Origin: Burkholderiaceae bacterium
GTDB lineage: Bacteria; Pseudomonadota; Gammaproteobacteria; Burkholderiales; Burkholderiaceae_C
Length of the DNA: 40,852 nt
Direction of reading: 5' to 3'
Assembly (NCBI GenBank): GCA_016790175.1
Contig: JAEUPI010000170.1
Location: 1 to 40,852, forward strand
A program made the translations under genes and the position numbers. This document shows, piece after piece, positions 31,911 to 36,613 of the stretch. The first letter of the stretch is position 1; every line of letters begins with the position of its first letter. The notes under the pieces were generated by a model. That model did not search any database. It saw only the letters and a list, made by a program, of their open reading frames with translations, and was not told the DNA's origin.

Positions 31911-32681
31911 CTAAGGCCGCACGGCCGGCGTCTCCACCGCGAGCCCGGCGCTGCGCTGCGCCAGGTACAGCTCGAGCGCGATCATCTCCGGCGCGTCGTG
32001 TGCAAACGGCTCGGCGCGCACGCCGATCTGGCAGTTGCGGATGCGCCGGCGCAGCGAGCCCAGGCCTTGCCATTCGAGGCGGTAGATCGGATAGCCGTTG
32101 ACGTGGCCCTGCGGGATCGGCGTGCCGCCGAGCCTGCGCCCGGGCAGCTCGTCGTGACACTGCACGCAGGCGAGGTGGAGTTGCCCCATGCGCTGGCGAT
32201 ACAGGCGTTCGCCCTCGGCGCGCGCCGCCGCGAGCTCGGGCACCGGCGATGGCGCGAGCACGGCGCCGCGTGAGGCATGGGCGACGGCGGCCTCGAGGCT
32301 CAGCAGCTCCTTGCTTTCGTTCGCCCACGCGGCGGCGCCTTGGTGCCGACTGCGACAGGCGTTGATGCGCTGCGCGAGGTTCACCGGCCGGCGCGCGGTG
32401 GCATCCCAGCCGGGGTAGCGGGCGGCCACGCCGGCCATCGCCCGAGGCAGATCGCCATGGCAATCGGCGCAACTCCTGCCGCTGCCCGGCGCCACGCGCC
32501 ACAGCGCCTCGCCGTCGGCCACCCACAGCATGCCGGGATTCTGCACATCGTCGCGCTGCATCGCCTGCAGGCTCGGGCTCATCGACTCGAATCCCGAGCG
32601 CTTCGGAGTGCCCTGGGCCACCACGCCCGCGCACACCAGCAGACCCAGCGCGGCGAGGGTCGCGACGTGTAGTCGCGTCAT
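31911..32681 (-). CDS. soxA: SoxA, dihaem c-type cytochrome of the SoxXA complex
   Basis: This 256-residue periplasmic protein has a signal peptide (about 1-23) and two haem motifs: CADCH (Cys71, Cys74, His75) and CVQCH (Cys172, Cys175, His176). The C-terminal RNCQIGVRAEPF carries Cys217, in the position of the active-site cysteine that ligates haem in SoxA and becomes a persulfide. Conserved RINACR (104-109) is also present. SoxXA joins a sulfur substrate to the SoxY arm with loss of two electrons. All catalytic features are retained, so it should be active. It is the last gene of the operon, and its ATG overlaps the soxZ stop (ATGA). The structured repeat lies after it. Confidence 0.93.
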   Translation of the reverse strand: MTRLHVATLAALGLLVCAGVVAQGTPKRSGFESMSPSLQAMQRDDVQNPGMLWVADGEALWRVAPGSGRSCADCHGDLPRAMAGVAARYPGWDATARRPVNLAQRINACRSRHQGAAAWANESKELLSLEAAVAHASRGAVLAPSPVPELAAARAEGERLYRQRMGQLHLACVQCHDELPGRRLGGTPIPQGHVNGYPIYRLEWQGLGSLRRRIRNCQIGVRAEPFAHDAPEMIALELYLAQRSAGLAVETPAVRP

Positions 32682-33004
32682 GTCACCGTGAGTCGGGCCG
32701 TCTCGGTCTGCGCGAAACCGTTGTCGCCCTCCCAGGTGAAGCTCAACGTGCCGCTCGCGGTTGCGCGCAGCGGAAAGGCGAAGTACGGATTCGCGGCGAT
32801 GGCCGGTGCGAGCTCGGCGCTGAACACCAGCGCGCCGTCGAAGCGGCAGCTGAAGCGCCGGATGATGTCGCGCGGCACGACGCGGCCCTGCAGGTCGGAG
32901 CGGTAGCCGGTTTCCATCGCATGCGCGATCATCGCGCGCAGCTCGATCACCTCGCCGCGGCGCGCGGCCGTGGGCACCTGGATCAGCGTGCGTGCGCTGG
33001 CCAC
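32678..33004 (-). CDS. soxZ: SoxZ, sulfur carrier partner protein
   Basis: This 108-residue small beta-sandwich protein pairs with SoxY. The order of segments fits the family: TLIQVPTAARRGEVIELRAM at the start, METGYR, RDIIRRFSCRFDG, NPYFAFPLRA, and TWEGDNGF near the end. It has no signal peptide, as expected, since SoxZ is carried through Tat with SoxY. The GTG start at 33004 is only three bases after the soxY stop, with GGAG inside the soxY end as ribosome site. Its stop overlaps soxA. Length is normal. Confidence 0.92.
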   Translation of the reverse strand: MASARTLIQVPTAARRGEVIELRAMIAHAMETGYRSDLQGRVVPRDIIRRFSCRFDGALVFSAELAPAIAANPYFAFPLRATASGTLSFTWEGDNGFAQTETARLTVT

Positions 33005-33007
33005 CCG

Positions 33008-33948: not shown

Positions 33949-36140
33949 CACGCCTTCTTGAGGCTATGGTGCTTGAGCGGCAGGTCGCGGATGCGCTTGC
34001 CGGTCGCCGCGAAGATCGCATTCAGCACCGCTGGCGCCGCCACCGCGATCGTCGGCTCGCCAACGCCGCCCCAGAAGCCACCCGACGGCTTGACCGAGGT
34101 TTCGACCTTGGGCATGTCCTTCATCTGCAGCACCGGGTAGCTGTCAAAGTTGGTCTGTTCGACGCGGCCACCCTTGACCGTGCATTCCTGGAACAGCATC
34201 GCCGACAGCCCATAGACGAACGAGCCTTCGACCTGCGCCTCGATCTGCTGCGGGTTCACCGCATGGCCGCAGTCGGTGGCGGCGACGATGCGATGGATCT
34301 TCAGTGCGCCGGCGTCGCTGACCGACACCTCGGCACAGGCGGCCACATAGCTGCCGAAGCCCATGGTCTGCGCGAGGCCGCGGAAGACACCCTTGGGTGG
34401 CGGCGAATCCCAGCCCACCTTGGCTGCCACCTCGTTGAGCACCGCCAGATGCTTGGGGTGTTGGGCCATCAGCTTGCGGCGCAACGCGAGCGGATCCTGC
34501 TTCGTCGCCGCGGCGATCTCGTCGATGAAGCACTCGAGGTAGATCGCGTTGTGGTTCAGGTTCACGCCGCGCCAGAAGCCCGGCGGCACCGGCGGATTGC
34601 GCATCGCATGGTCGATCAGCAGATTCGGCACGGTGTAGCCGATCGCCGCTTCGGCGCCGCTGGCATTCAGGCCCTGGAACACCACCGGGTCGAGTCCGTT
34701 GCGCACGTTCTGCGGGAACACCGAGGCGAGGATCGACTGGCCCGAGAGGCGCATGTGCAGCGCGTTCAGGTTGCCGTCCTTGTCGAGGCCGGCCACCAGC
34801 CGGCACTGGGTGACCGGGTGGTAGCGGCCGTGTTGCATGTCTTCCTCGCGCGACCAGATCAGCTTGACCGGCGTGCCAGGCATCTCCCTGGCGATCGCCA
34901 CGGCCTGGCGCACATAGTCGGTCATGCCGCGGCGGCCGAAGCCGCCGCCGAGGTGGATCTTGTGTACGTCGCAACGGGTGCTCGGCAGGCCCGAGGCCTC
35001 CACCGTGGCGGCAAATGCCGCCTCGCCGTTCTGCGTCGGGCACCAGACTTCGCAGCGTTCGCTCGTCCAGCGCGCGGTGGCATTCATCACCTCCATGCAC
35101 GCATGGTTCTGATAGGGATACGAATACACCGCCTCGATCGTGCGCGCGGCGCTGCCGAGCGCGGCCTTGGCGTCGCCGATCTTCGCGCCGGCCACCGCGT
35201 CGGCGGCGGTGAGGCCGGCCTTGAGCATCGTCGCGATGGTCGCGCTGGAGACGCCGGTGTTCGGGCCTTCGTCCCAGTCGATCGGCAGTGCGTCGAGCGC
35301 CGTCTTCGCATGCCACCAGGTGTCGGCCACCACGGCCACGGCCGTGTCACCCACCTTGACCACCTTCTTCACGCCGGGCCGGCCGGCGATGGCGGCGGCG
35401 TTGAAGCCCTTGACCCTGCCGCCGAAGACCGGGCAGTCCTTGATCGCGGCATTGAGCATGCCCGGCAGCACGAGGTCCATGCCATAGACCTGCGAGCCGT
35501 CGACCTTGTGCGCCGTGTCGAGCCGCTTCAGCGGCTTGCCGGCGATCTTCCAGGTCTTCGGGTCCTTCAGCGCGATGTCGGTCGGCGGCGTGAGCCTGGC
35601 CGCCGCCTCGGCCACCTGGCCGTAGCGCAGGCTGCGGCTGCTTCCGGCGTGGGTGATCACGCCCTGGCTCACCGTGCATTCGGCCGTCGGCACGTTCCAG
35701 CTGTTGGCCGCGGCCTGCACCAGCATCATCCGTGCCGCAGCTCCGCCCTTTCGCACGTAGTCGTGCGACTCGCGCACACCGCGGCTGCCGCCGGTGGAGA
35801 AGTTCTGCCACACGCGGTTGCGCGCCAGGCTCTGACCCGGTGTGGGGTATTCGGTGGTGACGCGGGCCCAGTCGCATTCCAGTTCCTCGGCCACGAGCTG
35901 CGCGAGGCCGGTGAGGGTGCCTTGGCCCATCTCGCTGCGTGCGATGCGGACCACGACGGTGTCGTCGGGCTTGACGACGACCCAGGCGTTGATCTCGCTC
36001 GGCGCCGACTGCGCCGCAGCCTTGGCCACCAGCGGGGAATCGGGGATGTGGAAGCCGACGACCAATGCGCCTGCGGTGCCGGCCGATGCGCCGAGGAAGC
36101 GGCGGCGCGATACCTTGCGGGTGGCGGCGGTGACGTTCAT
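33948..36140 (-). CDS. Tat-exported molybdenum hydroxylase catalytic subunit (IorB-like)
   Basis: This 730-residue enzyme of the isoquinoline 1-oxidoreductase / aldehyde dehydrogenase type oxidises N-heterocycles or aldehydes at a molybdopterin site. A Tat signal is clear (VSRRRFLGASAG, Arg12 to Leu16, followed by a hydrophobic stretch to about residue 43), so it works in the periplasm. Family motifs include EMGQGTLTGLAQLVAEEL, GGGFGRRG, PVTQ, NPPVPPGFWRG, and catalytic Glu695 in GGVGEPT. Length is normal for IorB. The small subunit is encoded 17 bases upstream, and soxX overlaps the stop. Ior enzymes pass electrons to c-type cytochromes; SoxX or SoxA may be that acceptor here, which is inference. 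Confidence 0.92.
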   Translation of the reverse strand: MNVTAATRKVSRRRFLGASAGTAGALVVGFHIPDSPLVAKAAAQSAPSEINAWVVVKPDDTVVVRIARSEMGQGTLTGLAQLVAEELECDWARVTTEYPTPGQSLARNRVWQNFSTGGSRGVRESHDYVRKGGAAARMMLVQAAANSWNVPTAECTVSQGVITHAGSSRSLRYGQVAEAAARLTPPTDIALKDPKTWKIAGKPLKRLDTAHKVDGSQVYGMDLVLPGMLNAAIKDCPVFGGRVKGFNAAAIAGRPGVKKVVKVGDTAVAVVADTWWHAKTALDALPIDWDEGPNTGVSSATIATMLKAGLTAADAVAGAKIGDAKAALGSAARTIEAVYSYPYQNHACMEVMNATARWTSERCEVWCPTQNGEAAFAATVEASGLPSTRCDVHKIHLGGGFGRRGMTDYVRQAVAIAREMPGTPVKLIWSREEDMQHGRYHPVTQCRLVAGLDKDGNLNALHMRLSGQSILASVFPQNVRNGLDPVVFQGLNASGAEAAIGYTVPNLLIDHAMRNPPVPPGFWRGVNLNHNAIYLECFIDEIAAATKQDPLALRRKLMAQHPKHLAVLNEVAAKVGWDSPPPKGVFRGLAQTMGFGSYVAACAEVSVSDAGALKIHRIVAATDCGHAVNPQQIEAQVEGSFVYGLSAMLFQECTVKGGRVEQTNFDSYPVLQMKDMPKVETSVKPSGGFWGGVGEPTIAVAAPAVLNAIFAATGKRIRDLPLKHHSLKKA

Positions 36141-36157
36141 GGCTCTCGCCTCCTCGC

Positions 36158-36613
36158 TCAGGCCCGTGACTTCGCGGCGATCTTGATCGCCGCGCGCACG
36201 CGGTTGTAGGTGCCGCAGCGGCAGATGTTGGTCATGGCCTCGTCGATGTCGGCATCGGTGGGCTGCGGCTTCTTGTCAAGCAGGGCCGCGGCGGCCATCA
36301 GCATGCCGCTCTGGCAGAAGCCGCATTGCGGCACGTCGAGCTCGATCCAGGCCTTCTGCAGCGGATGCGACGCGTTGGGCGCCAGGCCTTCGATCGTCGT
36401 GATCTTCTGGCTGGCGCTCACCGTGGAGACCGGGCGCACGCAGCTGCGCACCGGCTCGCCGTCGATGTGCACCGTGCAGGCGCCGCACTGCGCGACGCCG
36501 CAGCCGTACTTGGTGCCGGTGAGGCCGAGTTGTTCGCGCAGCACCCACAGCAGCGGCGTGTCGGGCTCGGCATCGAAGTCGCGGTCCTTGCCGTTGACGT
36601 TCAGACGGGGCAC
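36158..36613 (-). CDS. [2Fe-2S] subunit of periplasmic molybdenum hydroxylase (IorA-like)
   Basis: This 151-residue iron-sulfur subunit pairs with the IorB-like enzyme. The first cluster uses Cys38, Cys43, Cys46 and Cys58 ([16 protein letters not shown]). The second uses Cys97, Cys100, Cys131 and Cys133 ([19 protein letters not shown]). The NICRCGTY form is typical of IorA, and differs from the HFCRCTGY of the cytoplasmic enzyme at 28.6 kb. It has no signal peptide, as expected for a partner carried through Tat by the large subunit. A GAGGAG ribosome site precedes the ATG. It is the first gene of the six-gene operon. A divergent CDF exporter lies 126 bases upstream. Confidence 0.93.

Follow-up and report, generated by a model that had tools for sequence, protein, structure and literature searches.

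A conserved operon joins an exported IorAB-type molybdenum hydroxylase to SoxXA and an AACIE-arm SoxYZ carrier, often in genomes without SoxB

Results

Gene content and layout of the operon

The window, here meaning the whole stretch of DNA analyzed, is a 40,852-nucleotide contig (JAEUPI010000170.1, our contig C113) from the Burkholderiaceae bacterium assembly GCA_016790175.1, a genome bin that is 82% complete. On its minus strand lies an operon of six genes, iorA, iorB, soxX, soxY, soxZ and soxA (36613-31911), which combines both subunits of a molybdenum (Mo) hydroxylase with homologs of SoxXA and of the sulfur carrier SoxYZ. An initial annotation made from the letters alone had proposed these six genes and their tight packing. 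NCBIfam and Pfam scans assigned a family to each of the six, and the packing is as proposed: gaps of 17 and 3 bases separate iorA from iorB and soxY from soxZ, and 4 bases are common to both genes at each of the iorB/soxX, soxX/soxY and soxZ/soxA joins. All starts are predicted only. A mechanical open reading frame rule assigned GTG starts to iorA, soxX and soxZ, and the starts of soxY and soxA are internal ATG codons (33463 and 32681) within longer mechanical reading frames.

The gene iorA (36158..36613, minus strand) encodes a small subunit of 151 amino acids with two [2Fe-2S] domains (Fer2 and Fer2_2 matches) and is linked to iorB in most relatives. The product of iorB (33948..36140, minus strand) is the Mo hydroxylase large subunit of the xanthine oxidase family, a protein of 730 amino acids with MoCoBD_1 and MoCoBD_2 domains and predicted export by the twin-arginine translocation (Tat) pathway, as the family scan gave a Tat-signal match (TIGR01409) at residues 10-29. 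Its best solved relative is 8gy3, described as ‘Large subunit of aldehyde dehydrogenase’ (E 1.1e-69). G694, E695 and P696 of its GVGEP motif, which has a catalytic role, are invariant in all 20 aligned sequences. Judged by the two Mo-binding domains, the two [2Fe-2S] domains and the Tat match, the enzyme fits the IorAB type of the xanthine oxidase family; the label Ior (isoquinoline 1-oxidoreductase) comes only from the initial annotation and from a similarity that we assume. The pair resembles the IorAB and 8gy3 type in having an Fe-S subunit and a Mo subunit and in being exported, but differs in that the only cytochrome of the window operon is SoxXA, after which a sulfur carrier follows.

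SoxX (33460..33951, minus strand) is a monoheme c-type cytochrome that scores 70.3 bits against TIGR04485 (cut-off 61). SoxA (31911..32681, minus strand) is the diheme c-type cytochrome that forms the catalytic subunit of SoxXA (TIGR04484, 205.6 bits; cut-off 110). With window SoxA aligned to the solved SoxA 1h31, the CxxCH heme motifs of SoxXA and the cysteine heme ligand were found to be present. SoxZ (32678..33004, minus strand), the carrier partner, scores 82.2 bits against TIGR04490 (cut-off 76). The SoxY-like carrier (33008..33463, minus strand) has a C-terminal arm ending in TLAACLE, with the carrier cysteine at residue 149 of 151. It belongs to TIGR04487 (193.1 bits; cut-off 172), ‘SoxY-related AACIE arm protein’, a name that describes the protein and carries no function or operon context, and it falls under the cut-off of 125 for true GGCGG SoxY (TIGR04488, 85.3 bits). 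Compared with the canonical thiosulfate-oxidizing system of SoxXA, SoxYZ, SoxB and SoxCD, the window operon has SoxXA and SoxYZ homologs with intact hemes and cysteines. It differs in that SoxB and SoxCD are missing, the arm reads AACLE instead of GGCGG and a Mo hydroxylase is added.

Linkage of iorAB and sox genes in other bacteria

The initial annotation had suggested a neighborhood search for the co-occurrence of iorAB with an AACIE- or AACLE-arm SoxY, and from both sides the two were found together above chance. We searched the TIGR04487 profile in 399 genomes of the order to which the window belongs and took 78 stretches around the listed matches of at least 88 bits, leaving out G394 (at least 88 bits) and weaker matches. 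Together with the window and contig C212 of the host bin these gave 80 loci, at 75 of which SoxY was nearer to that of the window than to the canonical SoxY of the host, and at 5 of which it was not. Within about 8 kb of these 75 window-type SoxY genes, iorB is present at 66. From the other side, named genomes were scanned with an alignment of sox-linked IorB. Among the best 80 of at least 593 confirmed loci, soxX and soxY are found at 72 (at 68 of these all six genes are present) and not at 8, of which 5 lie on contigs that end within about 1 kb of iorB; this count is biased, as the query was built from linked loci.

The linkage also depends on how similar IorB is to the query. In the order, a TIGR04487 match lies within 6 kb of 63 of the 85 typed IorB matches at 700 bits or more, of 2 of 4 at 600-700 bits and of none of 61 at 500-600 bits. 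These gradations and the counts from the SoxY and IorB sides reject chance neighbors. Across 104 loci, pairwise distances of IorB correlate with those of the four Sox proteins at 0.60-0.71, compared with 0.74 for IorA and IorB (species descent uncorrected). The six-gene operon is real and recurs in many bacteria, among them Bradyrhizobium, Methylobacterium, Duganella and Roseateles. Two metagenome bins titled Bordetella parapertussis (loci L161 and L172) also carry an IorB of the sox-linked type; their species label looks doubtful.

SoxB, SoxC and SoxA in genomes with the operon

The initial annotation had noted that SoxB is lacking. This holds for the operon and not for the host genome, in which contig C212 carries soxB next to genes for SoxX, SoxA and a SoxY ending in GGCGG. 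In the host bin (82% complete) no match to SoxC was found at E 1e-100; SoxD was not sought. The absence of SoxB beside the operon is general: none was found within about 8 kb at the 75 window-type SoxY loci of the order, nor within up to 8 kb on each side of the best 80 IorB loci in named genomes.

Among the 72 linked loci, the non-metagenome records were treated as isolates; 37 loci were chosen, and 36 genomes were examined. SoxB is encoded in 18 of these named isolate genomes and absent from the other 18, by which the idea that SoxB is always required in trans, from elsewhere in the genome, is rejected. SoxA is found in all 36. Exactly one SoxA is encoded in 17 of the 18 SoxB-less isolates, compared with two or more in every one of the 18 with SoxB. 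In 16 of these 17 the single SoxA lies inside the operon stretch; the locus of the seventeenth (L194) shows no soxA. Sixteen of the 18 SoxB-less isolates have no SoxC either. At locus L203 (genome G354), one strand carries both iorAB-soxXYZA and, about 9 kb away, a canonical soxB/X/A/Y cluster.

Conserved residues and two types of loci

We distinguished type I loci (iorAB-soxXYZA) from type II loci (iorAB-soxYZ with neither soxX nor soxA at the locus). Residue conservation was taken from 106 complete type I loci, one pair of which is a duplicate. The SoxY cysteine is invariant in all 106, as are both CxxCH motifs of SoxA and the CxxCH motif and one methionine of SoxX; the column of the SoxA heme-ligand cysteine is conserved at 99%. 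In the 104 deduplicated type I loci the arm follows the pattern [ASLP][AS]C[ILVTA][DE], with an acidic residue at Cys+2 in every case and a GGCGG arm in none. The arm of type II differs in having glycine at Cys+1 in 18 of 26 loci.

Of the 26 type II genomes, 20 were tested for SoxA, and every one of them encodes it elsewhere. In each of five type II genomes that lack SoxB, soxX and a one-heme soxA stand together with no SoxB adjacent; four of these clusters were assigned a canonical-type SoxY, and a GGC end was seen in three. These separate soxX/soxA clusters (L198-L202, in genomes G039, G148, G016, G065 and G075), of which L198, L199 and L202 show the GGC-type SoxY end, represent a second SoxB-free Sox set. 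At two further loci (L205 and L206, genomes G131 and G263), soxXYZA with a TACLD arm occurs with no iorAB at the locus and with a SoxC-type gene nearby on the opposite strand.

Phylogeny of IorB

A FastTree phylogeny of 162 IorB sequences (136 linked to sox genes, 26 not) required 16 changes between the linked and unlinked states, compared with a mean of 24.6 after shuffling, none of 500 shuffles being as low; the unlinked sequences were sampled one-sidedly and near-copies inflate the contrast. Sox-linked IorB is not one clean clade, given the 16 changes on the tree and plasmid relatives at 66-69% identity that are mostly unlinked. With the thresholds used, two columns, S640 and Y643, separate type I IorB from the unlinked proteins, and cysteines 363, 390, 446 and 653 occur more often in type I.

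Flavoprotein partner and other neighbors

A protein encoded at the alphaproteobacterial locus L191 contains the central and flavin-binding domains of flavocytochrome c sulfide dehydrogenase (FCSD; PF21706 and PF09242). Relatives of this protein, defined as sequence matches of E 1e-20 or better within about 8 kb, are encoded at 33 of the 104 deduplicated type I loci: in the interval between iorB and soxX at 25, after soxA on the same strand at 7, a group that includes Noviherbaspirillum and four Duganella, and on the opposite strand at 1. A functional partner would be expected to show this pattern, one kind of flavoprotein gene at two positions, and the flavoprotein suggests that sulfide or sulfane sulfur is a product or substrate. 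Two Ancylobacter loci (L189 and L197) carry the full set and fccB. The window operon has no FCSD-type flavoprotein gene.

A small cytochrome c clustered in 9 loci, and among the neighbor clusters listed only this cytochrome and the flavoprotein stood out. A cluster of proteins resembling transporter binding proteins, presumably TctC-like, recurs at scattered places. A full operon on a Methylobacterium plasmid is accompanied by genes for a cytochrome c and an NAD(P)/FAD-dependent oxidoreductase.

In the window itself, a second Mo enzyme of the xanthine oxidase family (28472-31416, plus strand) lies tail to tail with the operon and consists of coxS/coxL-like Fe-S and large subunits, for which glyceraldehyde dehydrogenase subunits were the best match, below cut-off. 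At 38159-38671 (minus strand), an exported-looking protein of 170 amino acids has lysine- and glycine-rich repeats (AFKDGDKGGGKGP-like); it gave no NCBIfam or Pfam match.

Discussion

Relation to known systems

In the open-licence literature, as far as its accessible text goes, the pairing of a Mo enzyme with sox genes is described only for Starkeya novella (PMC3797975), and nothing was found on how widely it occurs, on genomes that have it without SoxB or on the arm rule. The second sox cluster of S. novella (Snov_1975-1982) comprises soxX2Y2Z2A2F2 and a xanthine-oxidase-family Mo enzyme and has neither SoxB nor SoxCD (PMC3797975). Going by this published description, it resembles the window operon in its Mo enzyme pair, in SoxX, Y, Z and A and in the absence of SoxB and SoxCD, and differs in having a SoxF-type flavocytochrome, which the window operon lacks. 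In the available part of that paper, SoxAX and SoxYZ of the second cluster were undetected, transcripts were very low on glucose, methanol and thiosulfate/CO2, and small amounts of one subunit of the SoxF-like protein were present, except on glucose. The authors propose that the cluster is functionless or has a role under other conditions. They treat it as the silent duplicate of one organism, and the arm and its spread are not discussed in that part of the text. A SoxY survey in mSystems, by its available text, deleted sequences without GGC (PMC11237559) and should for that reason not cover the AACIE-arm family.

A possible reaction for the operon

Because the operon recurs and does so often in genomes without SoxB, it probably serves a sulfur reaction other than ordinary thiosulfate oxidation. 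The initial annotation had proposed that SoxXA loads a sulfur-containing organic substrate onto the carrier and that the hydroxylase oxidizes its carbon part. The linkage and the lack of an adjacent SoxB on which it drew are borne out; SoxB is nevertheless present in the host genome, and the organosulfur chemistry goes beyond the genes themselves. We tentatively favor, at a little below an even chance, the view that a carbon-bound sulfur compound is oxidized in the periplasm while attached to the SoxY cysteine, a view in which the substrate and every chemical step are inferred. The operon would then form a conserved periplasmic module that is separate from the thiosulfate Sox pathway. SoxXA would oxidatively couple a thiol-type sulfur compound, probably one that contains carbon, to the tip cysteine of the SoxYZ arm. 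The exported IorAB would next oxidize the carbon part of the bound or just-released group with oxygen from water. Sulfur left on the carrier or freed as sulfide might exit via an FCSD-type sulfide dehydrogenase where one is present, or alternatively through the canonical Sox system in hosts that encode one. As no sulfonate would be hydrolyzed, SoxB would be unneeded.

The FCSD/SoxF-type genes of related operons strengthen the case for the loading of an organosulfur compound, as do the invariant carrier cysteine and the conserved heme-ligand cysteine of SoxA. The preferred reading also draws on the linkage counted from both sides, on the SoxB-less isolates with their usually single SoxA and mostly missing SoxC, on the co-occurrence of SoxC with the operon in SoxB-positive genomes and on the type I arm with its constant acidic residue. 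In our analysis the near-silence of the S. novella cluster on thiosulfate, methanol and glucose, as given in the accessible text of PMC3797975, may also be counted for a role other than thiosulfate oxidation.

Several observations weigh against carbon-sulfur chemistry on the carrier. The operon is commoner in SoxB-positive genomes of the order (SoxB in 30 of 40 type I genomes vs 155 of 359 others, p 1.7e-4, kinship uncorrected; ten type I genomes of the order have no SoxB), so it may be tied to canonical Sox. Aldehydes and heterocycles are the substrates of xanthine-oxidase-family enzymes, which are not known to attack a protein-bound disulfide. Nine of the 75 window-type SoxY loci are without iorB, including L103, which has a GGCGG arm, and 26 type II loci keep iorAB-soxYZ without local soxXA. 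IorB was found at E 1e-150 or better in 36 plasmid records; a relative of window-type SoxY lies nearby in 4 and is missing in 32, mostly of Sinorhizobium or Rhizobium and many of them near-identical strains, whose IorB is 66-69% identical to that of the window in 31 and 59% in one. A c-type cytochrome precedes iorA in two Sinorhizobium plasmid records, and a multiheme cytochrome stands beside iorAB in a Methylosinus plasmid region, in each case with no sox genes; these three opened regions indicate that the IorAB family can live with a cytochrome alone. Finally, no genes of organosulfur pathways were recognized among the listed recurring neighbors, which were inspected by eye, only the flavoprotein and the small cytochrome being family-checked.

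Alternative explanations

The sox genes might instead service IorAB, with periplasmic sulfane sulfur held by SoxXA/SoxYZ restoring or protecting the terminal sulfur ligand of Mo, or with sulfur species that poison the enzyme being scavenged. We consider this unlikely. At these loci SoxYZ stays constant and SoxXA varies, as the type II loci illustrate, and neither SoxB nor SoxCD would be required. There is also a precedent. SoxYZ-like carriers occur beside pyrroloquinoline quinone (PQQ) alcohol dehydrogenases, for which a role in maturation or protection is proposed in the available text of PMC12997753. That quinoprotein-associated carrier (TIGR04557; ped cluster) likewise has a carrier of the SoxYZ type next to a periplasmic enzyme that dehydrogenates carbon compounds. 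It differs in that the carrier is fused, the enzyme is a PQQ enzyme and a rhodanese and SoxH accompany it (PMC12997753), and window SoxY and SoxZ score 50.0 and 41.1 bits against TIGR04557, well under its cut-off of 140. Enzymes of the xanthine oxidase family do require the Mo sulfur ligand; in bacteria, however, this ligand is added before insertion by XdhC with a desulfurase, according to the available part of PMC2997495. Many IorAB proteins of the same family also have no such sox genes alongside. One form of this explanation, a periplasmic cofactor repair in which SoxYZ charged by SoxXA delivers sulfane sulfur to the exported Mo hydroxylase and rebuilds the labile Mo-sulfur ligand after export, is slightly more doubtful. 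It would explain why SoxYZ is constant, why SoxXA is commoner but variable and why SoxB and SoxCD are unnecessary.

No more and no less unlikely than the servicing of IorAB in general is that IorAB acts as an aldehyde or N-heterocycle dehydrogenase with SoxXA or some other c-type cytochrome as electron acceptor. Its linkage to SoxYZ would then be inherited baggage or reflect a parallel reaction of inorganic sulfur. A SoxXA that only accepts electrons from the hydroxylase was the simpler alternative given by the initial annotation. The closest solved relative, 8gy3, is a subunit of an aldehyde dehydrogenase, the three opened plasmid relatives adjoin a c-type or multiheme cytochrome, and the tested type II genomes all encode SoxA elsewhere. 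SoxYZ, however, has no redox center and is kept at the 26 loci without soxXA, and a CxxCH neighbor was seen at only one (L224) of 23 unlinked iorB loci (L214, L215 and part of L213 falling outside the listing).

It seems improbable that IorAB stands in for SoxCD and oxidizes SoxY-bound sulfane sulfur in an inorganic variant of Sox. IorAB and SoxCD are both exported Mo enzymes that insert oxygen from water, and SoxC was found neither in the operon nor, at the threshold given above, in the host bin. SoxC nevertheless co-occurs with the type I operon among SoxB-positive genomes of the order (24 of 30 with it vs 53 of 155 without; Fisher p 4e-6, kinship uncorrected), so the operon is not a replacement for SoxCD, and the established way of releasing a sulfonate requires SoxB. 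That the operon is a functionless or nearly silent sox duplicate, as the undetected proteins and very low transcripts of S. novella under the conditions tested led to be proposed there (in the accessible text of PMC3797975), is very improbable. Across alpha- and betaproteobacteria the genes keep their order, the cysteines and hemes are invariant and the proteins diverge in a correlated way, and all but one of the SoxB-less isolates have a single SoxA, nearly always inside the operon stretch.

Significance

Genes for SoxXA and SoxYZ are often used to infer that a bacterium oxidizes thiosulfate. For bacteria with this operon the inference could be wrong, as 17 of the 36 isolate genomes have a single SoxA and no SoxB. 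The operon also indicates that SoxYZ-type carriers were recruited to a Mo hydroxylase. If its sox genes repair the Mo cofactor, this would be a new way of maintaining exported Mo enzymes. If the preferred oxidation of a carbon-bound sulfur compound is true, the operon would connect the cycling of organic sulfur with that of inorganic sulfur in bacteria such as Bradyrhizobium, Methylobacterium, Duganella and Roseateles.

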